Of a DNA stretch of 35,260 nucleotides, positions 2 through 35,085 are shown in pieces. The stretch is from Anaerolineae bacterium (GTDB lineage Bacteria > Chloroflexota > Anaerolineae > Aggregatilineales > Phototrophicaceae): positions 1-35,260 of the forward strand of contig JALHNB010000067.1 of assembly GCA_022843745.1 (NCBI GenBank), written 5' to 3'. The position numbers and the translations under genes are program-made. Each line of letters opens with the position of its first letter. Position 1 is the first letter of the stretch. The notes under the pieces are model-generated. The model was not told where the DNA came from. It did no database searches and worked only from the letters and a program-made list of their open reading frames with translations.

Positions 2-2110
2 TGGCTTTTTCCTAAAGGAAATGCTGACCGTATTGAGATTATTTCGATAATTGCCTGTCATCATAAGGATGCCGAAACGCTATTTGATATGTATGGCGGT
101 AGGCACGCCCTGAGAGATGAAGCGACTGTCATACGCGAATCGTCATTGCAATTGATTCCACATCTGGCTCGGCAGATCAACCCGAAGACCCGCTGGCATT
201 TGTGGCGCTGGCTTAACGAATGTGGCGAGTCATGGGCTAGTACATTGGGCATCGAAATATCTGATATGCCCCAACTTCTTCCGTTTGAACAGGCTTCCAC
301 AACTAATTTGGAGCGATCCATCTTCCAGGCATTACGCGAATTCGCAGTGATTCGAGAAACACGTTTACCTGAAGAAAAAAACAGCGCACATCTCTACCGT
401 GGCCTCATCCTGACCTCTGACCACGCGGCATCAGCAGGGACACCACCATTCCCTCTGCTCCGATTGACAAAAGATGTCGCTGCTAACCCGCTCCCAGAAC
501 TTGCGAAATGGCGTTCGCATCAGCGCGAGGCCGATCAAGCAGGAGAGGGTTCGGCATTGATGATTGCGCCTACCGGGAGCGGAAAAACCGAAGCAGCCCT
601 GCTATGGGCTGCCCGTCAGATTGAACTACGTCCAGCGTCGAGATTGTTTTATACTCTGCCGTATCAGGCCAGCATGAACGCAATGGCTGAACGTTTGCAG
701 ACTCGGTTTTTTGACCCCGAAAATGATTTGGAAAAGGATCAAGTTACAATCCAGCACAGCCGGGCGACGCTCAGGTTGTATCAGGAGATGATGGAAGCCG
801 ACAGCGGCATAAATCCGAAGGTTGCGACGATAGGGGCAAAGAAACTGACCAATTTGGCAAAACTTAACTACTACCCAGTACAGGTGTTCAGCCCATACCA
901 AATGCTGAAAGCCGCGTACAGCCTGAAGGGCTACGAGGCGCTGCTGGTTGACTACACCAACGGCCTGTTCATTTTTGATGAGATTCACGCCTACGAACCC
1001 AAACGACTGGCGTTGATTATCACGATGATGGGCTGGCTTGCACACAATTATCGCGCCCGTTTTCTAGTGATGACGGCCACACTACCACTAATGATCGAAA
1101 CCGCATTGAAGCGCACCCTGCCTAACTGTGCTGAAATTCTGGCCGATGCGCAAGTTTTCGAGGACTCACGGCGGCATACAGTAGAGCTTCATGATGGTGA
1201 TTTGCAGGAATATCTCGATCAAATCGCGGTCAAAGGTCGCCAGGGCAAAGTATTGATCTGCTGCAATCAAGTGTCACGAGCACAGGATGTCTATCGTCGA
1301 CTGCAAGATGACTACAATTATACCCGTGACGATATGATGCTCCTACATGGACGATTCAATGGCAAAGATCGGACATCTAAAGAAAAGCAATTGGCAGAAA
1401 TTGTTGGTGTAGGCAAGTCGCGCCGCCCATATATTATCGTTGCCACACAGGTCGTTGAAGTCAGCCTTGATATTGACCTCGATACGATCTACACCGATCC
1501 CGCGCCGTTGGAAGCTCTATTGCAGCGCTTCGGGCGTGTTAACCGGGGTCGCAAGGAAAAAGAACTATGCCCCGTGCATGTGTTTCATCAGCCATTTGGA
1601 GAGAGAGAATCGAGACCCTACGATTATCTGCTGGTTGAAGAAAGCCTGAAAACTCTGGAGCGATACTGCGGAGGTGGCGAACCGATTGATGAATCACTTG
1701 TTACGAAGATGCTGGGCGAAATCTACCAGCGCAAAGAAATCATAGATCAATGGCAGAAGGACTATGACAGCGCGGAACGCAATTTTCAGGGCGTTCTTGA
1801 TCGCATGAAGCCTTTCCAATCGGCGGATATAAGCATTTACAAGCAGTTTTATGAGTTATTTGACGGAACGCAAGTGCTGCCTGTGGACTGCGAAACCGAA
1901 TATTATGACGCTCTCGAAAAGAGAGATTTTCTCGCAGCCAGTCAATATCTTGTCAATATCAGTTACGGGCAATATTGGGGATTAAGAAGTAAAGGGTTAG
2001 TAAAGGAACGAGAAAAAGAAGAATATGCCGATCACGTAAATGTCGATTACAGTGAGGAATGGGGATTGAACATTGCAGGCGCATTAGAGGCAAAGGACGC
2101 GGATGTATGA
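2..2110 (+). CDS. cas3: CRISPR-associated helicase/nuclease Cas3 (5' end outside window)
   Basis: Cas3 is recruited by Cascade to unwind and degrade the targeted DNA. The frame is open from base 2, before the first ATG at 89, so the gene starts upstream. The partial HD nuclease part shows the metal-binding pair in IIACHHKD (about 50-70) and the later LTSDHAAS motif (about 410-435). The superfamily 2 helicase follows: Walker A APTGSGKT at 566-589, a DEIH box near 978-989, MTATLP near 1070-1087, VATQVVEVSLDID near 1438-1476 and motif VI QRFGRVNRG near 1520-1546. The C-terminal part after about 1650 is less conserved. The stop overlaps the cas6 start as ATGA. The HD motifs argue against a subtype I-D Cas3', which lacks them; the exact type I subtype cannot be read because the effector genes lie upstream. 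Confidence 0.95.
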   Translation, partial: WLFPKGNADRIEIISIIACHHKDAETLFDMYGGRHALRDEATVIRESSLQLIPHLARQINPKTRWHLWRWLNECGESWASTLGIEISDMPQLLPFEQASTTNLERSIFQALREFAVIRETRLPEEKNSAHLYRGLILTSDHAASAGTPPFPLLRLTKDVAANPLPELAKWRSHQREADQAGEGSALMIAPTGSGKTEAALLWAARQIELRPASRLFYTLPYQASMNAMAERLQTRFFDPENDLEKDQVTIQHSRATLRLYQEMMEADSGINPKVATIGAKKLTNLAKLNYYPVQVFSPYQMLKAAYSLKGYEALLVDYTNGLFIFDEIHAYEPKRLALIITMMGWLAHNYRARFLVMTATLPLMIETALKRTLPNCAEILADAQVFEDSRRHTVELHDGDLQEYLDQIAVKGRQGKVLICCNQVSRAQDVYRRLQDDYNYTRDDMMLLHGRFNGKDRTSKEKQLAEIVGVGKSRRPYIIVATQVVEVSLDIDLDTIYTDPAPLEALLQRFGRVNRGRKEKELCPVHVFHQPFGERESRPYDYLLVEESLKTLERYCGGGEPIDESLVTKMLGEIYQRKEIIDQWQKDYDSAERNFQGVLDRMKPFQSADISIYKQFYELFDGTQVLPVDCETEYYDALEKRDFLAASQYLVNISYGQYWGLRSKGLVKEREKEEYADHVNVDYSEEWGLNIAGALEAKDADV

Positions 2111-3069
2111 GCCAGGAATATTTGATGCGCGGGTTGACGGTTCAACATTTTCTATTCACTGTTCGCCCCATCGAAAGTATTGTCTTTGGAGATCAGACAG
2201 GTTCAGCGCTACGTGGTGCGCTCTATCAGGCACTTTCTGAGAATTTTTGCAGTGAGCGCGATGGCATTGTTACGCCCGGACACCAGGAGCGTTGTCCGGT
2301 TTGCTGGTTGCTGGCTTTTGAAGATCAAACAGCACGTCGAGGACGTGATATACCCCGACCCCTCACGATTGAGCCACCGGATCAGCACCTATATCACAAA
2401 GATGAGCGTTGTACCTTCGGATTTACATTGATTGGTCGCGCACAAAATCTTTTTCCTTATCTAGCACGTGCCGTACAAAAGATGGGCGACTATGGTGTAG
2501 GTAAAGGGCGTGGCCGCTACAAACTCGAAATGATTAGTGAGCACACTCCATTGCTAGATGCAAAACGTGATCTGATGAACCAAAATGTCGTGCGGCAGCC
2601 AACACTACAAATCACACCCGGCCATATTCGTGAAGCCACATTAAATCGACCATCGAACCGAGTGACGATTCAATTGCAGACACCCCTTCGGCTCATTGCG
2701 GCAGATCATCTTGTCAAAACCCCCGACGCAGCCGTTTTTGTGCAGCGATTAATCGAGCGCTGCCAGAGCCTAGCTGCTTACTATGCAGAAAATGATTCGT
2801 TGCCAACTCGTGAAGAATGGTTGCAGACTATGTTTGACCTAAAAAAACAGGCAGAGAGCCTCTCTATTGCCTATGATGATACAGAATGGTTCGACGCATG
2901 GAGTGGCAGCAGAAGAAAAAAGACATATACGCCAATTGGTGGGTTGGTCGGTGTTTTTCGTTGGGAAGGGAATGTAGAAGCGCTATACCCCTGGCTGTTG
3001 TGGGGGCAAAGCCTTCACGTTGGCAAAGATACCGTGAAAGGAAATGGTTGGTACAAAATTACGGGCTGA
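2107..3069 (+). CDS. cas6: CRISPR pre-crRNA endoribonuclease Cas6
   Basis: Cas6 cuts the repeat RNA to release crRNAs that keep an 8-nt 5' handle. The ATG at 2107 overlaps the cas3 stop in an ATGA, giving 320 residues; an ATG at 2059 in the same frame would lie inside cas3 and is less likely. The protein has a CPVCWLLAF motif near residue 60, a glycine/basic stretch (YGVGKGRGRYKLE) near residue 130, and a C-terminal RAMP fold with GGLVGVFRWEG and the closing glycine-rich segment LHVGKDTVKGNGWYKI, as in the PF10040 Cas6 family. It is translationally coupled to cas3. A terminator follows at 3101-3127, so cas1-cas2-cas4 may form a separate transcript. The catalytic histidine was not assigned with certainty. 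Confidence 0.9.
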   Translation: MSQEYLMRGLTVQHFLFTVRPIESIVFGDQTGSALRGALYQALSENFCSERDGIVTPGHQERCPVCWLLAFEDQTARRGRDIPRPLTIEPPDQHLYHKDERCTFGFTLIGRAQNLFPYLARAVQKMGDYGVGKGRGRYKLEMISEHTPLLDAKRDLMNQNVVRQPTLQITPGHIREATLNRPSNRVTIQLQTPLRLIAADHLVKTPDAAVFVQRLIERCQSLAAYYAENDSLPTREEWLQTMFDLKKQAESLSIAYDDTEWFDAWSGSRRKKTYTPIGGLVGVFRWEGNVEALYPWLLWGQSLHVGKDTVKGNGWYKITG

Positions 3070-3100
3070 TGACATTATGGTTATTTTAGTAGTGACATTA

Positions 3101-3127
3101 ACGAGAGGCTTATGCCCTCGTTTTTTT
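3101..3127 (+). terminator. Intrinsic terminator after cas6
   Basis: ACGAG at 3101-3105 pairs with CTCGT at 3117-3121, with a GG/CC pair inside the loop side, and a run of seven T follows. It lies 32 bp after the cas6 stop and about 80 bp before the cas1 start, so it separates the interference/processing genes from the adaptation genes. Confidence 0.6.
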
Positions 3128-3208
3128 ATGCCTCTCCGAATCTTGCGGTACTTGCAATAGTGACGCGCTACATTGCAACCAACGCATACTGGAATCGGGG
3201 GTAATACC

Positions 3209-4228
3209 GTGCCTATTGTTTCGCACCTTATCGCAGATCAATTCGGTTCTCACGTTGGTAAATACAGTGAACGCATAAAGGTTACTCAGAAAGGTGAAAC
3301 GCTGGTGCAAGCGCCGCTTCTCCACTTGGAGTCGGTTCATATTCTCAGTATGGGCGTTAGCATCTCTGCTGATGCTCTCGAAGCGTGCTGTGAGCGTGGC
3401 ATTCCAATCTATTTTCTCGATGGGCGTGGCACGCCTTATGCCAATATCTATTCTGCTGGATTGACCGGAACGGTGATTACCCGACGGGAACAGCTTCGTG
3501 CCTTTGATGATTGGCGGGGTGTTCGGTTAGGCTTACGCATCGCCGAAGGCAAAATCCAGAATCAAGCCATTACGTTGAAATATCTTGCCAAAACCCGCAA
3601 AGACACACCCGTTGGAGAGGAATTACGACTTGCCGCTGGTGATGTGCTCGATCACCTTAGCCGTCTGGACAACCTTAAGGTTCGGTCACTGGAAGAGTTG
3701 CGAGGGAGTTTAATGGCTGTTGAGGGGAATGCCGCCCAGGTCTATTGGGCAGCAGCACGAATGGTTGTTCCCAAAGAATATAGATGGGAACGACGTGAAG
3801 GACGCGGTGCATCCGATCCTGTGAACAGCCTCTTGAACTATGGTTACGGGATTCTCTATAGCCAAATCGAGCGTGCTTTAGTATTAGCTGGCCTTGATCC
3901 ATATGCAGGTTTCATACACGTTGATCGTCCAGGAAAACCCAGCTTAACCCTTGATGTGATTGAGGAATTTCGACAAGTTGCTGTGGATCGGGTCGTTTTT
4001 GGACTGGTTGCCCGAAATTTTATTGTTGAGCAGGATGAGAAAGGTCATATGAGGCAAGAAACCCGACGAGCATTTGCTGACCACATTCTTCAACACCTGG
4101 AATCGGGCGTTCGTTTTGAAGGACAACGGCATCCTCTCCGTCAGGTCATTCAGACTCAGACACGTCGCGTCGCAAGCTTTCTTCGCCAAGTTAACGAGGA
4201 TTACATACCATTCAAAGCGGAATGGTAA
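3209..4228 (+). CDS. cas1: CRISPR adaptation integrase Cas1
   Basis: Cas1 joins new spacers into the leader end of the array together with Cas2. The GTG at 3209 is preferred because GGGGG lies at 3197-3201, 7 bases upstream; this gives 339 residues. A TTG at 3173 in the same frame lacks a ribosome site. The N-terminal beta domain runs to about residue 75. The helical C-terminal domain has the metal site: E172 (in VEGNAAQVYW), H237 (in GFIHVDRPGKPSL), D249 and E252 (in LTLDVIEEFR), matching the E/H/D triad of the family. It is followed 3 bp later by cas2 and then cas4, so the three form an adaptation module just before the array. Confidence 0.95.
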   Translation: MPIVSHLIADQFGSHVGKYSERIKVTQKGETLVQAPLLHLESVHILSMGVSISADALEACCERGIPIYFLDGRGTPYANIYSAGLTGTVITRREQLRAFDDWRGVRLGLRIAEGKIQNQAITLKYLAKTRKDTPVGEELRLAAGDVLDHLSRLDNLKVRSLEELRGSLMAVEGNAAQVYWAAARMVVPKEYRWERREGRGASDPVNSLLNYGYGILYSQIERALVLAGLDPYAGFIHVDRPGKPSLTLDVIEEFRQVAVDRVVFGLVARNFIVEQDEKGHMRQETRRAFADHILQHLESGVRFEGQRHPLRQVIQTQTRRVASFLRQVNEDYIPFKAEW

Positions 4229-4231
4229 GCC

Positions 4232-4483
4232 ATGCACTTGCTATTGATCTATGACATTACCAATGATCGTATTCGAACCAAAGTTTCAGCAGCCTGTGAA
4301 GACTATGGCTTGGATCGTATTCAATTCTCTGCATTTTCTGGGCAGCTTAGTCGTACCCATCAAGAGGAGTTAATCCTGAAAATCGGCAGTTTGTTGGGTG
4401 AAGAATCAGGGCGTGTGCAGCTTATACCTATATCTACAACCGATTGGGAAAAACGATTGGAGATTGTCAACGATGTTGGATGA
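4232..4483 (+). CDS. cas2: CRISPR adaptation protein Cas2
   Basis: This is an 83-residue ferredoxin-fold protein that bridges the two Cas1 dimers during spacer acquisition. The N-terminus HLLLIYDITNDRIRTKV is the family's first beta strand with the conserved YDI motif. A central FSGQLSRTHQEEL segment follows, and the typical VQLIPI strand is near the end. Length is within the normal Cas2 range (about 80-100). The ATG lies 3 bp after cas1, and the 3' end overlaps the cas4 start by 11 bp, indicating translational coupling. Confidence 0.93.
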   Translation: MHLLLIYDITNDRIRTKVSAACEDYGLDRIQFSAFSGQLSRTHQEELILKIGSLLGEESGRVQLIPISTTDWEKRLEIVNDVG

Positions 4484-5057
4484 TCGGCTTCTGTTTACGG
4501 TTACTGATCTGAAGCAATTTACCTACTGTCAGCGAGTCATATTTTACGAACGCTGCTTACCCCATATTCGTCCTCGAACCTTCAAGATGGATGCAGGACG
4601 TGATACTCACGAAGAAGAGGAAAAACGGGCAGTGCGGCGCAGTCTATCCGGTTATGATGTGTTGTCAGGTAAGCGTTTTTTTAATGTCCGCGTGATAAGC
4701 GAGTCACTGGGCTTAAGTGGCGAAATTGATGAAGTTGTTCGCACCTCGGATGGCGAAGTGTTTCCTGTGGATTACAAACTTGCCAAACAAGCAAGTCCAC
4801 ACTATAAGCTGCAGCTTGCCGCTTATGCAATGCTATTGGAAACAGCGGAGAATGTAGCTGTCAAACGTGGCTACATCTATCTCATCCGCACTCGACAGTT
4901 GGTTAAAGTCGCGATCACTTCCACTTTGCGTACACAGGTGGAAACAGCACTCACGACGATGCAGCAAATGATCGAGCAGGAACGGATGCCGGGGGTAGCA
5001 GTGAATCCTAATTACTGCGCAGCCTGTGAGTTCCGACGCTTTTGCAATGATGTTTGA
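4473..5057 (+). CDS. cas4: CRISPR-associated exonuclease Cas4
   Basis: Cas4 trims prespacers and helps select the PAM during adaptation. It has 194 residues from the ATG at 4473 inside the end of cas2. One cysteine is near the N-terminus (FTYCQRVIFYERC) and three close the C-terminal iron-sulphur site (CAACEFRRFC). The RecB-type nuclease core shows GEIDEVV, then VFPVDYKLAK (D and K of the catalytic set) and QLAAYAMLLE (QxxxY motif). Length and cysteine layout fit the Cas4 family. It is the last cas gene before the leader and array. Cas4 with a PF10040-type Cas6 and an HD-containing Cas3 is compatible with several type I subtypes. Confidence 0.93.
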   Translation: MLDDRLLFTVTDLKQFTYCQRVIFYERCLPHIRPRTFKMDAGRDTHEEEEKRAVRRSLSGYDVLSGKRFFNVRVISESLGLSGEIDEVVRTSDGEVFPVDYKLAKQASPHYKLQLAAYAMLLETAENVAVKRGYIYLIRTRQLVKVAITSTLRTQVETALTTMQQMIEQERMPGVAVNPNYCAACEFRRFCNDV

Positions 5058-5224
5058 CGAAACTCTCCCCCCAATCTTGACAGAAACCGAGTTACGAAAT
5101 TGTTGAAGCGAGTTTCCAGATTTCTTCATTGGCACAAAAAACATGGATACAATAAAATGGGTTTTAAGCGCGAAAAAATAATTGTAGGTCATTTTTATCC
5201 TGCGATCCCTGGAAATCATAAGCG
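5058..5224 (+). promoter_or_regulatory. CRISPR leader
   Basis: This is an AT-rich, gene-free stretch between cas4 and the first repeat. The degenerate repeat is at the other end of the array, which places the leader here. A TACAAT at 5148-5153 could be the -10 element of the pre-crRNA promoter; no good -35 is spaced properly (TTGGCA at 5129-5134 is too close). A TTGACA also occurs at 5077-5082 without a matching -10. The leader role is well supported; the exact promoter is not. Confidence 0.7.
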
Positions 5225-7148
5225 ATTTCTAGGTCTACGACCCGACTGAGGGTACTGAAACGCTTGCGCTCGAACACCTGCAAGACCACGACATCTTTAT
5301 TTCTAGGTCTACGACCCGACTGAGGGTACTGAAACAGTTGACGCGGCGGCTGGATGAACAATCAGGAGACGATTTCTAGGTCTACGACCCGACTGAGGGT
5401 ACTGAAACTAGGATTTCCACGTCGGCAGGAAGCGCACGAACTTATTTCTAGGTCTACGACCCGACTGAGGGTACTGAAACACAGGCCGGGCGCTCTCGCT
5501 GCCATCCCGCCGCATGATTTCTAGGTCTACGACCCGACTGAGGGTACTGAAACCAGAGGTTTTCGAGTTGCGGAATACTGTGGTTACAATTTCTAGGTCT
5601 ACGACCCGACTGAGGGTACTGAAACTTCGCCAATAATGACGTACTCTGAAAGCAATTTGATTTCTAGGTCTACGACCCGACTGAGGGTACTGAAACCTGT
5701 TGGAAATCGTCGCGTAGTATTGGTCGCTGAGATTTCTAGGTCTACGACCCGACTGAGGGTACTGAAACTTAACGACATGGAACGCAGCAACCGATTGTTT
5801 ATGATTTCTAGGTCTACGACCCGACTGAGGGTACTGAAACTTCGGATGCGGGCGGCGTTCCTGGAAGGGGAGGCGATTTCTAGGTCTACGACCCGACTGA
5901 GGGTACTGAAACATGTTTTGCCGCTGCCAGATGAGCCAGCAAAGATAAATTTCTAGGTCTACGACCCGACTGAGGGTACTGAAACAAAAGTGGCAAGGTT
6001 CACAGTCACTTTATTATCACAATTTCTAGGTCTACGACCCGACTGAGGGTACTGAAACTTCGACCTGCCGATAGAGTGGCCTCGTTACGTGGGTATTTCT
6101 AGGTCTACGACCCGACTGAGGGTACTGAAACTTCTCAACTTCATAAAGTGTTGACATATCCACCAATATTTCTAGGTCTACGACCCGACTGAGGGTACTG
6201 AAACAGTGTAACCCAGGCAGCGGGCGAGAATCCAAACGCATTTCTAGGTCTACGACCCGACTGAGGGTACTGAAACAGTTTCTTGAGGATGCGTACCGCA
6301 AGAGTAATCACATTTCTAGGTCTACGACCCGACTGAGGGTACTGAAACGATCAGTCGGTGGTGACGGTGTGAAGGCAGGCTTGAATTTCTAGGTCTACGA
6401 CCCGACTGAGGGTACTGAAACTTCGTGCATCGTTTTCGATGATTGAAGCCACCGAACATTTCTAGGTCTACGACCCGACTGAGGGTACTGAAACTGTAGC
6501 ATTCGCACGTCGGGCAGAAGCCCATCGTCATTTCTAGGTCTACGACCCGACTGAGGGTACTGAAACACTGGTGGAAACGCAGCACCGCCTTCACGTTGCC
6601 GAATTTCTAGGTCTACGACCCGACTGAGGGTACTGAAACGCAAAACAAGCCGGTCAGTCGCCGATTGAATACCTATTTCTAGGTCTACGACCCGACTGAG
6701 GGTACTGAAACGAATGACGCGCGATCTGCTGTTCTATCGCATGGAAATTTCTAGGTCTACGACCCGACTGAGGGTACTGAAACTGCCGGATGCGCGAATT
6801 AAATAGGACGTGCTGGCGCATTTCTAGGTCTACGACCCGACTGAGGGTACTGAAACCATCTTTATCACGCTGGCTTGCATGTCGGCTGAGGAATTTCTAG
6901 GTCTACGACCCGACTGAGGGTACTGAAACTTCCAACTCCCCCACACCCGGCCATCCGGGGCAATATTTCTAGGTCTACGACCCGACTGAGGGTACTGAAA
7001 CATTAGGAATGTGGACGTTTACATGAACACTATCCAAATTTCTAGGTCTACGACCCGACTGAGGGTACTGAAACTTCCAGCGAAGTGCGCGATGTGACGC
7101 AGATCGGCATGATTTCAAGCTCTACGACCCGACTAAGGGTACTGAAAA
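5225..7148 (+). CRISPR. CRISPR array, 27 repeats of 37 bp, 26 spacers
   Basis: Twenty-six identical 37-bp repeats start ATTTCTAGGTC, carry a CCCGACTGAGGG hairpin, and end in ACTGAAAC. A final degenerate copy lies at 7112-7148 with four changes, including the last base. Spacers are 34-37 bp and all different. Examples of repeat starts are 5225, 5299, 5372, 5444, 5517, 5589 and 5660, with the last perfect copy at 7038-7074. The ACTGAAAC 3' end resembles the type I crRNA handle, so transcription is on the + strand, in the cas gene direction. Minus-strand ORFs here are repeat translations, not genes. Confidence 0.99.
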
Positions 7149-7269: not shown

Positions 7270-8253
7270 ATGACTCTGTCCATGCGAAGTGAAAACGAGC
7301 AGCGCCCAGTTGAGCTTGACCTTACTCTTGTGACCAGATACGCTGCCACATTTATCTCCCGTACTGACCTCTACCCTGTCCAACAACCGGATGGGCGTTA
7401 CATCACCCTTCATAAGCCGCTGGGACTGAGCCTCATAATGCAGCACCTTTTGGGGCAAATTACGTTAGGCGCATATCTGCTCGATGTCACGAGTACGGCC
7501 AAGTCGATTTGCTTGGATGCCGATACCGATGAGACTTGGCAAGGGCTTCTCACTCTCGCACGCTCTCTGCAACAACAGAATATTCCAGCCTACCTTGAGC
7601 TTTCAAGACGTGGCGGACATCTCTGGTTGTTTACAGAGCCGCTGGATGGCTCGTTTGCTCGACGTTTCGGGAAGCAACTCCTAGCCGAGCATCAACTGTC
7701 GAGTGTTGAACTCTATCCCAAACAAGATCAACTCGTTTCTGGCCCTGGCTCACTCGTTCGCCTGCCTCTGGGTATTCACCGCCTGACCGGACGCAAATAT
7801 CACTTCATCACACCCGATGGCGAACCACTTGCACCGACTTTTCGCGAACAAATTACACTGCTTGCCTCCCCTTCTCGCGTTCCATTCGGCTTCATCATGT
7901 CTTTGCTTGTCAAAACACTCCCCTCTGTCGAAGCACCAAAACCGATACTAGAACGCAATCCCACCTCCCCTGCCCCCGGACATACCTTGTCTGAGCGTAT
8001 CAAAGCCCGAATTTCGGTGCTGGATTTCATCAGCGAGTATGTGCAACTAGACACCAAACACACGGGTTTTTGCCCCTTCCACGACGACCAAAAGCAAAGC
8101 TTTAGCGTCAACGTGGAGCAGAACTATTGGCACTGCTTCGCTGGCTGTCCAGGACAGACGGTGATCGACTTCTGGATGCTGTGGCGTGCCAAGTATGGAC
8201 AGGAGGGTAGTTTTACCGCCACGATCAAAGAACTCCGAGACATGCTGTTTTGA
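7270..8253 (+). CDS. Archaeo-eukaryotic-type primase fused to a CHC2 zinc finger
   Basis: This is a probable DNA primase of a mobile replicon, 327 residues from the ATG at 7270. The N-terminal two thirds look like an archaeo-eukaryotic primase (AEP/PrimPol) domain: an acidic pair D83/D85 in ICLDADTDE, a histidine H117 in SRRGGHLWLF, and a third segment SLVRLPLGIHRLTGRK near residue 165. The C-terminus is a DnaG-like CHC2 zinc finger with C268, H271, C289 and C293 (CPFHDDQ and HCFAGC). The two halves come from different primase worlds, so the protein is a chimera. No helicase domain is present. The 3' end enters the first 8-bp repeat array, and the AAA ATPase gene follows. The 121 bp between the array and this gene hold only a pyrimidine-rich stretch. 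The primase call is good; the exact family is inferred. Confidence 0.75.
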   Translation: MTLSMRSENEQRPVELDLTLVTRYAATFISRTDLYPVQQPDGRYITLHKPLGLSLIMQHLLGQITLGAYLLDVTSTAKSICLDADTDETWQGLLTLARSLQQQNIPAYLELSRRGGHLWLFTEPLDGSFARRFGKQLLAEHQLSSVELYPKQDQLVSGPGSLVRLPLGIHRLTGRKYHFITPDGEPLAPTFREQITLLASPSRVPFGFIMSLLVKTLPSVEAPKPILERNPTSPAPGHTLSERIKARISVLDFISEYVQLDTKHTGFCPFHDDQKQSFSVNVEQNYWHCFAGCPGQTVIDFWMLWRAKYGQEGSFTATIKELRDMLF

Positions 8254-8376: not shown

Positions 8377-9180
8377 TTGGAAGTTTACGGCCTGTCAGAA
8401 GCGCCGTACTCAACCAAGCCTAATGAACGCTACCTTTACCTGACACCAACTCACAAAGAGGCGATTGCGATGGTGGCGAAAGTCATTCGGGATCGTGAAG
8501 GCGGTGCAGTTGTGTATGGCAAGTTTGGTACGGGCAAAACCACCCTCATGCGACGGCTCTACTCCGAGATGCGCGACTTCCCCGACCAATTTCAGGTCGG
8601 TGTCATCGAGAATGCTGGACACTGCCCAACAGAGTTTCAACTAGCTGGCGAGATTATTGAAAGCTTTGGTGCGAAGAGTACACACAATGACCGTAAAGGA
8701 CGCTATGACCAAGTGAAGGAACTGCTCTTTGAGAACTACCACCGCAAGATTACCTCGATTCTGTTGATTGATGAAGCCCAAGAACTCCCTGCAAAAGTCC
8801 TGGAGAGCCTGCGCGGGTATCTCAACTTCGAGACGAGCGACGAGAAAATCTTGCAGATCATCCTGTTTGCCCTGCCAACTATTACCCGCAAGCTGGCCTA
8901 TGCCAAAACGCTGCGTAACCGCCTCTGGCGAACCGAACTGAAGGAAATGACACGCGCCGAGTTAACCGAGATGTTGCGTTGGCGCTTCACTCAGGCTGGA
9001 GGAAAAGTATTTCCTTTTGAGGAATCTGCCGTCAACTACCTGTTTGACCTCACTCAGGGACATCCCCGTAATTCGTGTGGATTGGCACAACTAGCACTGG
9101 AAGTGGCCGCACTGGGAACAGGCCGGATTACTAAAGAAGTGATTATTCAAGTTCAACAGAAACGCTTCTTGGAAGACTAA
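8377..9180 (+). CDS. ExeA/TniB-like AAA ATPase
   Basis: This is an AAA+ ATPase of 267 residues from the TTG at 8377. The opening LEVYGLSEAPYSTKPNERYLYLTPTH (split here by meaning) follows the ExeA pattern FFGLxxxPF...LFLSPSH. Walker A is VVYGKFGTGKTTL (about residues 46-58), Walker B is SILLIDEAQELP (about 127-138), and an arginine-rich segment KTLRNRLWRTEL follows. Relatives serve in transposition (TniB, IstB-like), secretion (ExeA) and helicase loading. The start is uncertain: no ribosome site precedes the TTG, while AAGGGGG at 8338-8344 sits 5 bases before an in-frame CTG at 8350 that would add nine residues. The gene lies between the primase and the small DNA-binding protein (3-bp gap), so a role in replication or segregation of the element is inferred. 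Confidence 0.8.
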   Translation: MEVYGLSEAPYSTKPNERYLYLTPTHKEAIAMVAKVIRDREGGAVVYGKFGTGKTTLMRRLYSEMRDFPDQFQVGVIENAGHCPTEFQLAGEIIESFGAKSTHNDRKGRYDQVKELLFENYHRKITSILLIDEAQELPAKVLESLRGYLNFETSDEKILQIILFALPTITRKLAYAKTLRNRLWRTELKEMTRAELTEMLRWRFTQAGGKVFPFEESAVNYLFDLTQGHPRNSCGLAQLALEVAALGTGRITKEVIIQVQQKRFLED

Positions 9181-9183
9181 ACT

Positions 9184-9618
9184 ATGAGCAGCATCTTTGC
9201 CCGACTACTCGAAGAAGGCGGTAAACAACAGCAGCAGTTGAAGCAGCTTGTGGCCGAACCGAAAACGGAAGCAGTGGTATTTGAAAAGCCAGAAAGTGAC
9301 AGCACGACAGCACGACAGCAAGCTGTCCAAACAGCGCCACAGCATGACAGCACGCTGTCACGACAGCACGACAGCACCCATGAATACATCGCTTCCTTTC
9401 TCCATGCTAGGGCGCAGAACAAAACGACTCTCCGGTATCCCCAAGCGCTGATGAACGAATTGGATGAGGTCATCTACCAGTGTAAAAAGACCTACAAAGT
9501 GAGCCTTTCAAAAAATGAGATTTTCGTTCTAGCTTTGGGTTACGTCATGGGAGATTTCAAACGCCACGCCACTCGCAGTGAGTTATATAAAGAACTCATC
9601 CAAGACAAAGAAAAATAA
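9184..9618 (+). CDS. Small protein with RHH-like C-terminus, carrying an iteron array in its gene
   Basis: The protein has 144 residues. Residues 1-38 are charged and Q-rich (KQQQQLKQL). Residues 39-66 are a Ser/Thr/Gln/His linker encoded by the 8-bp repeat array B. Residues 75-140 resemble a ribbon-helix-helix domain: strand KTTLRYP, helix QALMNELDEVIYQCKK, turn, helix SKNEIFVLALGYVMGDF. It starts 3 bp after the ATPase stop. RHH proteins usually bind short tandem sites as dimers or filaments (omega, ParG, CopG), so it is the obvious candidate to bind arrays A, B and C and to regulate or segregate the element. That role is inference. The RHH assignment rests on pattern only, not on a profile hit. 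Confidence 0.6.
   Translation: MSSIFARLLEEGGKQQQQLKQLVAEPKTEAVVFEKPESDSTTARQQAVQTAPQHDSTLSRQHDSTHEYIASFLHARAQNKTTLRYPQALMNELDEVIYQCKKTYKVSLSKNEIFVLALGYVMGDFKRHATRSELYKELIQDKEK
9298..9377. repeat. 8-bp iteron array B (10 units), inside a coding region
   Basis: Ten contiguous 8-bp units start at 9298, 9306, 9314, 9322, 9330, 9338, 9346, 9354, 9362 and 9370. Six are direct GACAGC, two are inverted GCTGTC (9322 and 9354), and two are degenerate (AACAGC, CACAGC). The phase never slips. Because 8 is not a multiple of 3, the translated linker shows a loose 8-residue period (DST, ARQQ, QHDST). Bases 9306-9336 are identical to 9646-9676 of array C. Confidence 0.92.
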
Positions 9619-9629
9619 CCTTTTGATTT

Positions 9630-9693
9630 GCTGTCACGACAGCATGACAGCACGACAGCAAGCTGTCCAAACAGCGTGACAGCCTGACAGCAA
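9630..9693. repeat. 8-bp iteron array C (8 units)
   Basis: Eight units start at 9630, 9638, 9646, 9654, 9662, 9670, 9678 and 9686. Five are direct GACAGC, two are inverted GCTGTC (9630, 9662), and one is degenerate (AACAGC at 9670). It begins 11 bp after the stop of the RHH-like gene and ends about 43 bp before the first hairpin of the structured region. A 31-bp stretch is identical to array B, implying duplication or strict site conservation. Confidence 0.9.
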
Positions 9694-9736
9694 TTTACCC
9701 CTTGTATCCATCTTTTCCTCGTGTTGTAAATGACTG

Positions 9737-10560
9737 ACTTGCAGTTCGCTGCAAGTGGAACGCCACCATCACGGCGAACGAGTGATGGCCGACTGACCGA
9801 AGCAACCAACCGACGATGAACCGTTTCTCAAGTCTTTACACACTTGAGATAAGGAAGTGCGAAAGCATTTCCGAGGACACCTCACGCGATTTGATGCGTT
9901 GTATCGAAATTGAAAAAACGATGCGACGCATCGCGTAGGAAGCATCAGAGGGAAGGGAAGCGAAGGGAGGGAAGGATACCGAAGGAAACTCCAAATGCGC
10001 AGAGCGCATTTATAGGAGAAAGGCGTTTACCACTTCATTTTGAGGTGTATTTTGCTATGCCTAACGCTACGACTAGGCTAGTCGTAGTCTCGGACTGGAA
10101 TAGTCCAACCTCGAAAATACAATACCCGTGGCTTTGTCGGGCAGGGTACTCGCATCCCGCCTCGGTCTCGCCTGGAATTAGGCGAGCTTCGGCACGGATC
10201 ACTTCGACCCCACCGCTCCGCATCCACCACCCCGTCGGCCTTTTGGAAGGACACCAAAAGCCCGACTACCCACCCCGCCGTCGCCAGCCACACGCAGAAA
10301 GATTCTGTAGGGAGTAACGTGTGTCTGTGGCTGGCGGTTCCCTCGTTCTGCTTGATCCCGACAACCCTGAAAAGTACGCTTGGGTTGCCGGGGCAGAACA
10401 TCGGCGGACGCGGGCGGGGTGACGAAATACGCGCCACCCGCCACGCTCGGTGTGGGTAGTCGGCCTACGGCGCGACGGGGTGTTCCGCCTGACGGCGGGG
10501 CGAATGGCCTTCGGCCAAAAGATGTTGGCGAATATCGAGGTGGGTAGCCCAGGGGAGACA
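9737..10560 (+). ncRNA. Candidate large structured non-coding RNA (about 0.8 kb)
   Basis: There is no credible protein here, but perfect stems occur throughout. Examples are 9737-9756 (8 bp, UUCG loop), 9766-9788, 9826-9849 (8 bp), 9853-9872 (8 bp, GAAA loop), 9884-9936, 9989-10018, 10067-10087 (9 bp), 10092-10106, 10167-10186 (7 bp), 10234-10266, 10282-10336 (11 bp) and 10345-10399 (17 bp with mismatches). A 12-bp long-range helix joins 10262-10273 to 10452-10463. The UUCG and GNRA loops read correctly on the + strand, giving the likely sense. A purine-rich segment (9937-9990) lies in the middle. Size and setting recall GOLLD/ROOL-type ornate RNAs of mobile elements, but I do not recognise a family. 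No group II domain V or RNase P core was seen. Ends are approximate and no promoter was found. Confidence 0.7.
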
Positions 10561-10664: not shown

Positions 10665-10988
10665 ATGAACTCGGCTCTTCGAAACTCATCGTTTTTGAGG
10701 TTTCGGCTCATCACGGCTTGGATGGGGTTTGCCACTGCCTACACACTCTATGGTCGTGAGGCTGACCTGCAACGTCTCGTTGCGTGGGCGACGCGCAAAC
10801 GCCTGTCTCAACCGCGTCAAATGTATGAAAATCGGCTCACTGAAACACAGATGAAGCTTTCCCATATGCAAATGCACTCGCCCCAAATTCTCGCTTTGGC
10901 GCGTTTGTGTTATACGATTACTGATTGGCTGTTTCCGCCTCCCAAGTATCCACACAAGGGAAGCGCAAGCGGATACAGACAAGGGTAA
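10665..10988 (+). CDS. Hypothetical protein, 107 residues
   Basis: I do not recognise this ORF. It starts with ATG at 10665 just after an AT-rich stretch (TTGACT at 10628-10633, CATAATAAT at 10656-10664) that could hold a promoter, though the spacing is poor, and there is no clear ribosome site. The sequence is rich in Arg, Leu and aromatic residues, with a hydrophobic segment LITAWMGFATAYTLYG near residues 16-31 and probable helices after it (QRLVAWATRKRL, ILALARLCYTITDWLF). It ends in a basic, low-complexity tail. It lies between the two structured RNA regions and could be a real small element protein or chance. The 104 bp before it hold nothing else I can identify. Confidence 0.35.
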   Translation: MNSALRNSSFLRFRLITAWMGFATAYTLYGREADLQRLVAWATRKRLSQPRQMYENRLTETQMKLSHMQMHSPQILALARLCYTITDWLFPPPKYPHKGSASGYRQG

Positions 10989-11049
10989 GTTGCATTTTAA
11001 GAATAAAACGACCTACACTATGACATAACAAAACACGAAACTATCAAAC

Positions 11050-11178
11050 GCCCCCGATTAAGTGCTGAAACACCAATCGAGGGCTAACCCATCACGCTGG
11101 GCTTAGCAGTATGAGAGGCTGAAGCGATTCTAGCTATTTCAGTCGTCAATTGCGATTCCCAGCAGTTGGCGACTTTTT
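11050..11178 (+). ncRNA. Chain of four hairpins ending in an intrinsic terminator (small RNA or leader)
   Basis: Four stems follow each other: 11050-11084 (CGATT with AATCG plus outer GCCC pairs), 11083-11107 (GCTAACCC with GGGCTTAGC, one bulge), 11119-11142 (CTGAAGC with GCT...TTCAG) and 11141-11174 (AGTCGTCAA with TTGGCGACT, 9 bp). The last is followed by TTTTTATTTT, a good intrinsic terminator. No ORF is present. It could be an independent small RNA of the element, or the attenuator of the operon that begins at 11217. Adjacent stems share a base or two, so exact borders are soft. Confidence 0.5.
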
Positions 11179-11216
11179 ATTTTAAGGCAGCTTATATCTT
11201 GTCTGGAAAGGAGAGT

Positions 11217-11465
11217 ATGAATGATCGAACCCAACTTGCTTTATTTGATCTGCCACTCAAATCGAAGGAGAAGACGAGCCATATTGTTTATATTCCCCCA
11301 TCCCTTGAGATCGTAGATAAATATGCCTACACCGTCTGTCGAATATACAAAGAACAATTTGGAACAAACTGCACGACAACTGAGTTTCTACAAGGATTTC
11401 GTGCCTTTGTCCGAGCAGTCGTGAAAGCCAAAGCCAATCAGTTAAACAAAGGAAAAACAATATGA
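11217..11465 (+). CDS. Small RHH-like protein upstream of the recombinase
   Basis: This is an 82-residue protein starting at the ATG at 11217, with AAAGGAG at 11207-11213 just upstream; the frame is open further back but without a ribosome site. After a polar N-terminus (LALFDLPLKSKEK), the segment SHIVYIPPSLEIVDKYAY, a second helix and TTTEFLQGFRAFVRAV resemble a ribbon-helix-helix fold. The layout matches the C-terminus of the 9184-9618 protein (strand, PxxL, long helix, tyrosines, EF/EI helix), so the two may be distant paralogs. Its stop overlaps the recombinase start as ATGA, so it is co-translated and may act as a regulator or directionality factor. Function is not known from the sequence. 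Confidence 0.55.
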   Translation: MNDRTQLALFDLPLKSKEKTSHIVYIPPSLEIVDKYAYTVCRIYKEQFGTNCTTTEFLQGFRAFVRAVVKAKANQLNKGKTI

Positions 11466-13243
11466 AGCGCAAATCATCAGACCGTAGTTCACCAAAGCGA
11501 AGTGTTGCCCTCTGCTATATCCGATTATCATTTACCCGCGATGCAGATGACACAAACAGTCCAGATCGCCAACGCGCCAACATTCAAGTTGTATGTAACA
11601 AATATGGTTGGACACCCGAATGGTATGAAGATGTAGGAGGTCACAAATCTGGCAGATATGAGAAAAACCGTCCCCAATGGCTAGCGCTTAAAGCCCGCTT
11701 GGGTGACCCAGATGTCATTGCCTTAATTGCCAATGATCTTTCTCGCCTTCATCGCAAAGGTTGGCGAGTGGGCGATCTCATCGAATATCTCAACGAATGT
11801 GGCGTGAATTTGGTGCTTGCAGCCCCAGGTCGAGAAATTGATACCACGACCATGAAGGGCAGGATGTTTCTTCAGTTTGGTGCAATTGTTGATGAATACT
11901 ACGCTGAAGACATTTCCCAACGAGCCAAAGACAATATCGCCTATCGTAAAGGTCAGGGGAAGAGTATTGGCATGACGCCTTTTGGGACAATTCGCAATGC
12001 AGACGGCTATCTTACCAGAAGTCCCGAAGGAGCTTGGGTACTTCCGAATGGTTCGTTGGTTGCTGGGACGATGACTGACAATCCACCGCAAGAGGGTGCC
12101 ATCTGGCGTAGCTACTATGAAGCAGCAGAGCAAATTTTAAGGCTGTATGCTACAGGAGGATATGGTCTTGAGAGAATTGCTTATCAACTCAATAACGATG
12201 GATGGGCATTTCGGGATCGTACAGGCACACCACGACCTATTAATCGCGACGATGCCCGCAGAGTGATCGCCAACTGGTCGGAATATGGTGGGATGCGTGT
12301 TGACCGCAAAGCCAAAGATCGTCCAGCCTATGAAAAATACAATGTAGATGAGCTTCCTTTGCGGAGTGACCGTGCTCTTTTCCCACTTGAACTGATCCGA
12401 GCCGTTGCCAAAGTTCGGCAGGAGCGGACAATGAAACCTATTGATCGCGGGGAGAAACTGATTTCGCATCCCTATCCCTTGAGTGTCATCACCTACTGTG
12501 CTCATTGTGAAAATCAGGCACGAGAAAAAAATCAACAGAATTTACGCACTACATTAACCGGAAGAACTGAACGGGATGGAACACGACGATATCGTCACCG
12601 CCGTGGCGTCAATTGTGGCTGTATCAACCAATCCGTTGAGTCTCAGATATTGGAGCAGGACTTCAGCCGCCTTATTAAATTACTTACGGTTACTCCTAAA
12701 GCGCTTGCTCTCATGCAGCAGTTAGCACGCGAGCTTAAACAGGGAAATGGCAATGGAAAAAGCAAAGAGGATGTGGAACGTGAAAAGCAGGAAGCCATTG
12801 CTTTGTGCAGAAGGCGTATTGATGCTGCCGTGACACTCTTTGGCGACGGAATGATTAATAAAGACGACTATCGTAGACGTATTGAGGCCAATGAGCGCGA
12901 GATAGTCCGCTGGGAAGCCAAAACGAGTGGAGATGAGCAAATTGCGATAGAGCTAGCCATGTGTATGGAAGCCATTGATCGTTTAAGTCGATTATGGGAT
13001 GCAAGCACGGATGAAGACAAACAAGGAATAACCCGCAGTTTGTTTGAATACATCGTCTACGATCTAGATAGACATCGGATTTTGAGTTTCCGACTCAAGT
13101 CATGGGCAGATCAATTCGTTATCTTACGTGGCAAACTCTATGAGGATGAGATCATATCGTACACAAAAGAAAATTCCGCAACGGTTCAAGGTTTGCGGAA
13201 TGTTATGCCCCATAGGGAATTCGAATCCCTGTTTTGGCCTTGA
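11462..13243 (+). CDS. Large serine recombinase (site-specific integrase)
   Basis: The protein has 593 residues. The resolvase catalytic domain fills residues 14-165, with the likely nucleophile S23 in CYIRLS, followed by SPDRQRANIQ and the conserved NDLSRLHRKGW segment. A recombinase domain (about 170-340) includes GKSIGMTPFG and the repeated-region signature RIAYQLNNDGW. A zinc ribbon (CAHC ... NCGC) and a coiled-coil region (about 430-510) follow, as in large serine integrases that insert and excise phages and elements. The ATG overlaps the previous small gene. The last 12 codons and the stop run into the 3' half of the tRNA-Glu gene on the other strand, which suggests integration there. 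No matching half-site was found at the other end within the window. Confidence 0.93.
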   Translation: MKRKSSDRSSPKRSVALCYIRLSFTRDADDTNSPDRQRANIQVVCNKYGWTPEWYEDVGGHKSGRYEKNRPQWLALKARLGDPDVIALIANDLSRLHRKGWRVGDLIEYLNECGVNLVLAAPGREIDTTTMKGRMFLQFGAIVDEYYAEDISQRAKDNIAYRKGQGKSIGMTPFGTIRNADGYLTRSPEGAWVLPNGSLVAGTMTDNPPQEGAIWRSYYEAAEQILRLYATGGYGLERIAYQLNNDGWAFRDRTGTPRPINRDDARRVIANWSEYGGMRVDRKAKDRPAYEKYNVDELPLRSDRALFPLELIRAVAKVRQERTMKPIDRGEKLISHPYPLSVITYCAHCENQAREKNQQNLRTTLTGRTERDGTRRYRHRRGVNCGCINQSVESQILEQDFSRLIKLLTVTPKALALMQQLARELKQGNGNGKSKEDVEREKQEAIALCRRRIDAAVTLFGDGMINKDDYRRRIEANEREIVRWEAKTSGDEQIAIELAMCMEAIDRLSRLWDASTDEDKQGITRSLFEYIVYDLDRHRILSFRLKSWADQFVILRGKLYEDEIISYTKENSATVQGLRNVMPHREFESLFWP

Positions 13244-13278
13244 GAGGGCCACGTCCTAGGCCTCTAGACGAATGGGGC
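13206..13278 (-). tRNA. tRNA-Glu (CTC)
   Basis: Read on the - strand, the acceptor GCCCCAT pairs with ATGGGGC, with A as discriminator. The D stem is GTCT/GGAC. The anticodon stem is TGGCC/GGCCA with loop CTCTCAA, giving anticodon CTC. The T arm is AGGGA-TTCGAAT-TCCCT. CCA is not encoded. Length is 73. Its 3' half overlaps the end of the serine recombinase gene on the + strand. Confidence 0.97.
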
Positions 13279-28062: not shown

Positions 28063-28152
28063 AGGGGAAAGCGAAATCGAACCGCTTAAAATGCGATTGA
28101 TTTAAATATAACAACAACCCCGTAGCGCAATATTCGCTCAGGTTGTCGTTTC

Positions 28153-28325
28153 ACCTTCTCCCATCCAGACTATTACTGTCGGCTCTGGCTTCGCACCAGA
28201 TCCACCGGCATGATTGGCTACTGCCTTTCATGACGCACCAACCTGTTACAGTTGGCGACACGGGTAGCGGGCTTGGTACTTGCGCACCTTACCGCCGGTA
28301 GGGAATTCCGCCCTGCCCCGAAGGT
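28153..28325 (-). promoter_or_regulatory. FMN riboswitch (RFN element)
   Basis: On the - strand P1 is ACCTTC (28320-28325) with GAAGGT (28153-28158). The conserved blocks are all present in order: CGGGGCAGGG, GAATTCCCTACCGGCGGT, AAGCCCGC, GCCGGTGGATCTGGTGCG, AGCCGACAGTAATAG and TCTGGATGGGAGAAGG. A variable hairpin arm lies between 28216 and 28258. FMN binding is expected to shut off the downstream riboflavin transporter genes. A likely -10 box TATACT is at 28346-28351, with a weak TGTAAT at 28369-28374 17 bp upstream. Confidence 0.96.
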
Positions 28326-28422
28326 TTACATATGAAATTATGACCAGTATAGCAGAAACTATATTGGAATTACACACAAAATTGGTTCTAAGCGTTTCGG
28401 CAATTCAACCAGTCAGCCTTTT

Positions 28423-31942: not shown

Positions 31943-32059
31943 CGTTGGCAGTGGCGTACTCTCCCACACCGTCACCAGTGCAGTACCATCCGCGCTCGTG
32001 AGCTTAACTGCCGGGTTCGGGATGGAGCCGGGTGGACCCTCACGGCTCAAACCACCAAC
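31943..32059 (-). rRNA. rrf: 5S ribosomal RNA
   Basis: On the - strand the terminal stem GTTGGTGG pairs with CTGCCAAC. The body has the conserved CCCGAACCCGGCAGTTAAGC region and the GATGGTACTG loop E/helix IV part followed by GTGGGAGAGTA. Length is about 117. It follows 23S as expected. Ends are given to within a few bases. Confidence 0.94.
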
Positions 32060-32239
32060 AAATGCTCTCTCTCACTTCGCTTTACTCTCGCGCTCTCGCT
32101 CTGTCGTTGTCAACCGCAACTACAGATGAATACATGCATTTCTTCGACGTTTCTTGTCTTGCTTCTTGCTTCGTTGCGTCTAGGCTTCGAGTAACGCTTT
32201 GTCCAACTGCTCACAAAGCACCCATTTCTCCGTATCACA
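32060..32239 (-). other. 23S-5S spacer
   Basis: The 180 bp between 23S and 5S are pyrimidine-rich on the + strand (CTCTCGCGCTCTCGCTCTG) and contain no tRNA and no ORF that I believe. It is probably precursor RNA removed during processing. Confidence 0.6.

Positions 32240-35085
<2,846 letters not shown>

Follow-up and report, generated by a model that had tools for sequence, protein, structure and literature searches.

A new modular class of large structured noncoding RNA predicted beside the partition genes of Chloroflexota mobile elements

The locus and its noncoding region

The window, that is, the whole stretch of 35,260 nucleotides that was analyzed, is contig C67 of a 7.96-Mb genome of an Anaerolineae bacterium; the features described below lie on its + strand unless otherwise specified. 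An AEP (TOTE-type) primase with a CHC2 zinc finger (7270..8253; Pfam PF22548 2e-22, PF01807 1.9e-13) is followed by an AAA ATPase (8377..9180; AAA_22 2e-16) in the partition-ATPase slot, a position held by ParA in L110 and others, and by a small adaptor protein (9184..9618), which occupies the same slot in relatives and for which no Pfam family scored below 0.001. A repeat search located iterons of GACAGCA units within the adaptor gene (9298..9384) and a second iteron cluster (9630..9692) between the adaptor gene and a predicted promoter (9702..9730). The noncoding RNA follows (9737..10560), and downstream of it are an ORF of 107 amino acids (10665..10988), with no family in Pfam or NCBIfam and, by eye, with counterparts in L110, L111, and L118, and the serine recombinase of the element (11462..13243; Resolvase 8.7e-20). 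The RNA had been described as lying between the replication genes and the integrase of an element, and this arrangement holds in the window, with replication and partition genes on one side and the recombinase on the other.

The iterons at 9298-9384, and those of relatives, encode the middle part of the adaptor, and the iteron word differs among elements. Adaptors of several relatives begin with an N-terminal SGLADSPFF peptide. Because the adaptors of relatives combine iteron-coded repeats with differing C-terminal parts, the adaptor is likely a centromere-binding protein.

Several further features of the window were recorded. A CRISPR-Cas locus upstream of the primase (89-7148) encodes a Cas3-like helicase, Cas6, Cas1, and Cas4 and has a 27-repeat array with repeat units of 37 nt; its 26 spacers, compared with all fetched loci, matched only their own copy (L156) and one 17-nt sequence, seen in two loci covering the same place, so that no spacer matched a relative over its full length. 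The sole tRNA in the window, a tRNA-Glu (CTC) at 13206-13278, overlaps the 3′ end of the recombinase ORF in the manner of an integration site. A second copy of the tRNA end of at least 13 nt was absent from the window and only a weak match of 23 nt was found elsewhere in the genome; there is no clear second att copy, which leaves tRNA-Glu a candidate integration site. An FMN riboswitch and the 5S and 23S rRNA genes (28149-28329, 31943-35083; − strand) indicate that ordinary chromosomal DNA lies on the right-hand side of the element.

Folding of the 824 nt from 9737 to 10560 gave −366.8 kcal/mol, compared with −296.8 ± 7.6 kcal/mol for 20 dinucleotide shuffles (z −9.17), and the same interval read on the − strand gave a z of −8.17. 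The minimum-energy fold contains 27 uninterrupted helices of at least 5 bp, 15 of them of at least 7 bp, in agreement with the preliminary description, which had counted at least twelve stems in about 820 bp; the long compound stem that it reported was recovered as an inverted repeat of 19 nt (10259-10277/10448-10466) with 89% complementarity. The UUCG and GAAA loops were also found, capping stems at 9737-9756 and 9853-9872, respectively, but their use as evidence for the + strand was dropped, since GNRA/UNCG loops in 31 relatives fell 15 times on the + strand and 16 times on the − strand, without strand bias.

The longest ORFs in the RNA region are of 135 amino acids (+ strand) and of 119 and 120 amino acids (− strand). 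In L110, the nearest relative (RNA 95.7% identical, 37 differences in 864 positions), single-base indels at 10212 and 10511 fall within the ORF frames of the region. The earlier statement that there is no believable ORF therefore stands for this pair, with short ORFs only and frames broken by the L110 indels, and as judged by the comparison with L110 the region would encode no protein. The boundaries drawn previously also proved good: the predicted start at ~9737 coincides with the start of the interval, the conserved core runs to 10482, and sequence identity to L110 extends beyond 10600. Taken together, the fold, the covariation described below, and the L110 comparison confirm the observation of a large, ornate structured RNA at 9737-10560.

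The predicted promoter consists of TTGTAT (9702-9707) and TGTAAA (9725-9730) separated by 17 nt, with TG at 9722-9723. Scored by a rule devised after these sequences had been seen, the layout TTGnnn-17-TnnAAA with an extended −10 reached at least 6 in 11 of 18 type-A loci, compared with 57 of 2000 random 80-mers; the remaining 7 type-A loci scored below the cut-off. A simple terminator lies 3′ of the core in 5 of the 21 copies checked, and the same test found none in the window copy.

Relatives and conserved structure

A blastn search of 101 genomes, including the genome of origin, resulted in partial matches in 5 other genomes and in a second, different copy in the same genome (C31, L003). 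Loci L012, L015, L035, L048, and L056 come from Anaerolineae, Chloroflexota. Models were then available for two kinds of RNA: R1, built on nine type A sequences (5′ domain only), and R2, built on three of type B. Within the order, R1 matched 14 of 154 genomes at E <= 0.1, of which 13 were counted and one (G043, E 0.05) was left out, and R2 matched 12 of 154; 20 of the 154 genomes contain RNA of type A or B, and 5 contain both types. In the class sample R1 matched 7 of 396 genomes at E <= 0.01, including two of a further family (G472, G486), and also matched G288 (23 bits, E 0.0065). In a phylum sample of 400 genomes R1 found only the genome of origin and a match of 26 bits (G756/L129), which forms 2 of 4 pseudoknot pairs and was called chance; in 298 class genomes R2 found only the genome of origin and a 22-bit match (G237), also taken as chance.

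The loci used comprise 17 of type A with a whole 5′ domain (window included), 3 of type A at contig ends, 12 of type B, and 9 with the core and neither 5′ domain. One more locus, G026:C80 (L005), is cut by a contig end and retains the 3′ part only. The 39 loci scanned for the core are all of these minus the 3 contig-end type A loci, plus L005; without the window they give 38 related loci, nearly all from one order of Anaerolineae (Chloroflexota). Distant blastn searches returned zero matches in a plasmid record collection and zero in 50,697 phage records, and scans of IMG/VR viral contigs with two RNA patterns and one adaptor protein gave zero relatives: the type-A two-part pattern and the adaptor protein had no match, and the two matches to the pattern GTCGGCCTNCGGCNNGACGGGG were rejected, as both lie within long ORFs. 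In genome contigs GTCGGCCTNCGGCNNGACGGGG had 45 matches, of which 5 from Anaerolineae/Chloroflexi contigs, including L035 and L048, were taken as true and the other 40 were set aside on organism alone.

The RNA is modular, with an exchangeable 5′ part that is of type A (with a pseudoknot), of type B, or replaced by an HTH gene in the same slot. The type A 5′ domain of the window begins with an H-type pseudoknot (9761..9788), in which 9761-9764/9773-9776 crosses 9766-9772/9782-9788 and both helices are 100% paired in 9 sequences. The 4-bp arm, which is outside model R1, is complete in 16 of the 19 distinct rows with bases there, 7 of these 16 being outside the original nine; the arm is incomplete in L126 (one gap), in L127, and in L129, the match called chance. 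The segment 9826..9872 holds a pair of covarying hairpins, 9826-9832/9843-9849 and 9853-9872, and a conserved GACACCUCA comes after it. The middle domain (10129..10226) has a covarying closing helix (10129-10132/10223-10226) and a conserved strand, GUCGGGCAGGGU, at 10137-10148.

The preliminary description had proposed looking for covariation among homologs beside similar primase and ATPase genes, and under shuffle controls base pairs were found to covary along the whole molecule. In the MAFFT alignment of nine type A 5′ domains, 23 pairs in four helices had 94.7% of cells paired and 18 of the 23 showed double changes, with none of 500 shuffles equal on these measures; for the count of further pair types, 75 of 500 shuffles did as well. 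Across 20 distinct type A rows the three modelled helices were 96.5% paired, and 12 type B rows gave 35 pairs, 90.2% paired and 21 with double changes (0 of 500 shuffles). A full-length alignment of 13 type-A RNAs supported 45 pairs by double changes, compared with a mean of 5.8 and a maximum of 10 in 20 column shuffles, and the complementary-strand consensus of the same 13 RNAs supported 40 pairs (energy −129.7 vs. −142.1 on the + strand). Significance in these counts was gauged by shuffles and slid partners that ignore kinship among the sequences, on structures derived in part from the very sequences counted; on this comparative basis the fold appears conserved and covarying.

Which strand is read was approached through the balance of G-U and A-C combinations. 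For the 5′ domains the counts were 16/2 (G-U/A-C) in the MAFFT alignment and 30/1 and 40/14 in alignments fitted to + strand models, and an automatic full alignment gave 42/20 in the 5′ domain and 25/11 in the middle. Because G-U outnumbers A-C there, the data point to the 5′ domains being + strand RNA. For the core, the automatic alignment gave 33/10 inside it but 11/16 in its helices, and fixed columns gave 2 G-U vs. 5 A-C in 306 cells; fixed columns are preferred to a figure of 8 G-U of 708, which is biased by stems chosen as contiguous with little weight for G-U. We cannot fully explain the missing G-U excess in the core; it would follow if each strand had two pairing partners, or from a role as DNA.

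The 3′ core (10228..10482) is a predicted four-way junction. Enclosed by helix A (10228-10237/10473-10482) and helix B (10262-10273/10452-10463) are hairpin 1 (10238-10261), hairpin 2 (10464-10472), and an inner stretch that spans 90-191 nt in a set of 29 cores. A UUGGCGAAU motif (10525..10533) lies 3′ of the core and is seen by eye in several relatives. In 17 type A/B sequences helix A is paired in 131 of 136 cells and helix B in 169 of 170, with 0 of 1000 strand shuffles equal, a lenient control in that the helices were picked by complementarity. At a score of at least 52, the descriptor scan recognized the core in 36 of 42 tests, equivalent to 33 of 39 distinct loci (L152 and L195 at 52 only), whereas 88 windows taken from other DNA scored 51.5 at most; these windows were used since the reverse-complement control, which reached 58.5, is uninformative for a self-complementary core that mirrors itself. 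The core was present in all 9 loci missed by both 5′ models. No core was called in L123, L116, L117, L108, L146, and L153 (the last at a contig end); L108, L116, L117, and L123 have a good type-A 5′ domain and enough sequence yet lack the core, and may be decayed or shortened forms, while L146 scores low.

Within the window core the word GUCGGCCU stands at both the A/hairpin border and the B/hairpin border. When the borders were compared across the 29 cores, the A/hairpin-1 word was found again where helix B meets hairpin 2 in the same element, over a mean of 7.6 nt, compared with a mean of 5.3 and a maximum of 6.2 when partners were redealt (0 of 1000 reached 7.6 nt). This set leaves out L110 (a near copy), L003/L006/L009 (the same loci as L121/L118/L119), L145 and L147 (in a different register), and the six loci in which no core was called. 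The recurring word is GCCGGGGCUUG in L114, GUCGCCCUU in L124, GUCGUCCUU in L152, and GCCUCGCUU in L196, so that with its two complementary strands the word varies in step at four places. The long-range form was the free minimum in 7 of the 8 cases folded and was 21-44 kcal/mol better than its pieces folded separately, and in such a model the junction could branch-migrate between the long-range and a local form.

Gene neighborhood, module exchange, and carriers

Where enough flank is intact, the order of the locus is ATPase, small adaptor, (iterons,) RNA, and then variable genes, the iterons having been read in part of the loci; contig ends truncate L123 and L151, and upstream of the RNA in L146 only a remnant is left. 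The ATPase is one of several ParA kinds or an AAA_22 protein, and the genes 3′ of the RNA include a recombinase, a replication-relaxation protein, or a HerA/TrwB-like ATPase. The primase is mostly upstream of the ATPase; it lies downstream of the RNA in L106, L107, L112, L116, and L117, outside the fetched flank in L114, L118, and L125, and ~9 kb off in L119. The link to tRNAs suggested at the outset did not prove general, the regular neighbor being the partition/iteron module.

Including the one in the window, 37 copies of the primase occur in 22 of the 154 genomes of the order. With six copies at contig ends left out (G059 twice, G060, G112, G028, and G022), 30 of the 31 testable copies have a type A/B RNA or core in the same locus, counting G050, where the RNA is ~9 kb off, and G067, where a contig end cuts it; the sole copy without RNA is a primase fragment (G101:C3:2174364). 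At the level of genomes (n = 154), 20 have A/B RNA by the two models alone, 22 have the primase, and 17 have both (Fisher p 1.6e-15), and G008, G024, and G026 have the RNA with no primase match.

Comparison of close relatives revealed exchange of modules around the RNA. Between the window and L110 the primases are 87% identical (genes 85%), so that the RNA is better conserved than the primase gene, and blastn found no similarity in the ATPase, the adaptor, or the iterons, similarity starting near the predicted RNA start. A second noncoding stretch downstream, at 10990-11185, is 90-100% identical to L110 over ~11001-11160 with flanks of 45-90%, folds with a z of −3.25, ends in a hairpin and a T run, had no Rfam match up to E 2, and is perhaps a small RNA of the element. 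L152 and L195, with closely related primases (tree path 0.13), share 87% identity over 721 nt of the 3′ part of the RNA and differ in their 5′ parts and ATPases. On a primase tree of 31 elements no fewer than 9 changes are needed for RNA type, against a mean of 13.6 in shuffles, and no fewer than 12 for ATPase kind, a reassortment that, as read from the tree, speaks against a specific RNA-ATPase partnership.

The 5′ part can also give way to a protein gene. In 7 of the 9 core-only loci (L186, L187, L188, L192, L193, L195, and L197) an HTH gene is found in place of the 5′ RNA domain; the three tested belong to HTH_36 (E 1.5e-12 to 8.4e-11) and have weak, sub-threshold matches to RepL or phage replication protein O. 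In the other two, L190 and L196, which share another 5′ region, the same pattern found no HTH gene.

The 47,669-bp contig G008:C2, which carries a type-A RNA and a HerA/TrwB-like ATPase, has ends that overlap by exactly 99 bp, as is typical of circular contigs, and is therefore probably a circular plasmid. In the same genome, the 2.7-Mb contig G008:C7 has a type-B copy accompanied by an ORF that by eye resembles a recombinase, and its fetched flank contains a tRNA. Taken together, these two contigs suggest that the elements probably occur in two states, as plasmids and inserted in chromosomes.

Classification and possible role

At gathering score, Rfam 15 found only rRNA, the FMN riboswitch, and tRNA in the whole window, all outside 9737-10560, and only a tRNA in six relatives; between 9500 and 10700, three chance-like matches far below cut-offs were obtained up to E = 5. 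The preliminary description had left open whether the RNA is GOLLD/ROOL-like or of a new class and had proposed Infernal searches for GOLLD, ROOL, OLE, HEARO, and group I/II introns, none of which matched in 9737-10560 at gathering score; the likeness to GOLLD includes size and carriage by a mobile element, and the alternative of a new class stands. ‘Chloroflexi-1’, as given in the available text of PMC2864571, is Rfam RF01698 and did not match the RNA. No Chloroflexota plasmid RNA of this kind is named in the available portions of PMC12286853, PMC12641628, PMC2864571, and PMC11109978. Within the literature searched, the terms used, and Rfam 15, the RNA is undescribed, the survey of 224 RNAs lying outside that literature. 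The ROOL and ARRPOF RNAs reportedly come from this survey.

By comparison we place the RNA in a new modular class of large structured noncoding RNA of the general kind of GOLLD, ROOL, and ARRPOF. GOLLD, in the sections of PMC12286853 available, likewise is ~800 nt, has an ornate fold, and belongs to mobile DNA with a conserved 3′ and a less conserved 5′ region; here, in contrast, there is no Rfam 15 match, the setting is the partition locus of plasmid-like elements and not phage tRNA islands, and the core is a four-way junction with a repeated word. ROOL, a large ornate RNA of mobile elements in the same text (PMC12286853), differs by the absence here of an Rfam 15 match and by hosts and gene context. 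The same text (PMC12286853) describes GOLLD and ROOL as RNAs of phages and prophages that often lie close to tRNA islands; phage or prophage carriage was not found for our RNA, blastn and IMG/VR being without relatives. ARRPOF is nearest in setting, being an ornate RNA named for a plasmid replication region that forms a ring-like homodimer according to the available text of PMC12641628; here it had no Rfam 15 match, although Rfam 15 may not include an ARRPOF model. The locus resembles ParABS-type partition loci in its ParA ATPase, small adaptor, and iteron repeats and differs from them in its large structured RNA and in that the ATPase can also be AAA_22. To our knowledge, no ParABS-type locus with a large structured RNA has been described, and we know of no link of ARRPOF to a primase, iterons, or an HTH protein.

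The reading that we favor, at a probability of about 0.6, is that the locus specifies a noncoding RNA of ~750-850 nt with its own promoter, a new class that serves the maintenance of plasmid-like/integrative elements of Chloroflexota. Comparison of the loci indicates a 5′ pseudoknot/hairpin domain with a + strand signature, a covarying four-way-junction core, a regular place beside iterons and partition/replication genes, and retention of the core amid exchanged partition genes and 5′ parts. The RNA would be transcribed as ~750-850 nt from its own predicted promoter and would serve element maintenance, the most likely task being replication, or control of it, at the neighboring iteron locus. 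We infer a role in replication because the primase and iterons are regular neighbors while the partition proteins are exchanged, and because in type C an initiator-type HTH protein is encoded where the 5′ domain would lie; the link between RNA and replication is thus one of neighborhood. The 5′ RNA domain would do the job done in type C elements by the slot-encoded HTH_36 protein, and the core would form local hairpins while being transcribed, its strands then exchanging into the long-range junction so that only the complete transcript would be active. More tentatively, and with less than even odds in our estimation, the large RNA would be the constant part of a plasmid maintenance system, its 3′ core shared by an entire family of Chloroflexota plasmids and integrative elements, with several kinds of partition ATPase, DNA-binding adaptors and their iterons, and the 5′ domain as plug-ins and with HTH_36 (replication-initiator type) able to replace the 5′ domain, and the core would be an RNA Holliday-like junction, one word matched in four places, acting as a branch-migrating switch.

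Other explanations account for part of these observations. The size and ornateness of the RNA are similar to those of GOLLD and ROOL, and it could, like them, be a self-assembling cage or ring with some other service (packaging, ribosome/tRNA capture, stress) and not replication, which we consider unlikely but worth keeping in view. The 3′ conservation, less conserved 5′ region, and mobile DNA of GOLLD (PMC12286853, as far as available), the ring-like homodimer of ARRPOF, named for a plasmid replication area (PMC12641628, likewise), and the high identity of the RNA between the window and L110 elements all agree with it; the regular neighbor here is a partition module, however, whereas the available text of PMC12286853 places GOLLD and ROOL in phages/prophages, in many cases near tRNA islands, and neither the blastn search of 50,697 phage records nor the three IMG/VR scans found a relative. 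Somewhat less probable again is that the structure, at least in its 3′ core, acts as DNA, either as single-stranded initiation/transfer hairpins for primase or relaxase or as inverted-repeat binding sites in an origin region. Iterons and an AEP primase adjoin the structure, the core is without an excess of G-U over A-C, and two directly repeated inverted repeats, whose word varies in step per element, resemble a protein site co-evolving with its protein. Yet covariation is seen in the outer segments of helices A and B, which can pair in the long-range form only, a form for which duplex binding sites have no need; moreover, the 5′ domains have the + strand RNA signature, a promoter-like site stands at the 5′ end, and simple terminators, where present, are 3′ of the core.

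Plasmid RNAs often control copy number, and the 107-aa-type gene lies downstream of the RNA in several elements, so that a cis-acting leader of a neighboring gene, or an antisense/copy-control RNA directed at it, was considered as well. We regard this as improbable, and slightly more so than a DNA role: the downstream genes vary (recombinase, replication-relaxation protein, HerA/TrwB-like ATPase) and leave no fixed target, and the copy-control RNAs known to us are smaller and without such a pseudoknot. That the repeats are due to chance or decay in GC-rich DNA, where both strands do fold well, is negligibly likely, given all the covariation controls and an RNA 95.7% identical between elements whose primase genes are 85% identical.

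For GOLLD, ROOL, and ARRPOF the structures are known and the function is not settled, and the new class, read as an RNA of element maintenance, offers a handle on this problem in its regular gene context, its probably circular plasmid carrier, its natural module swaps, and a protein gene that replaces an RNA domain. The role of giant RNAs of mobile elements would thereby become directly testable on a plasmid, and the core word kept in step would, if confirmed, be a new principle of RNA design.
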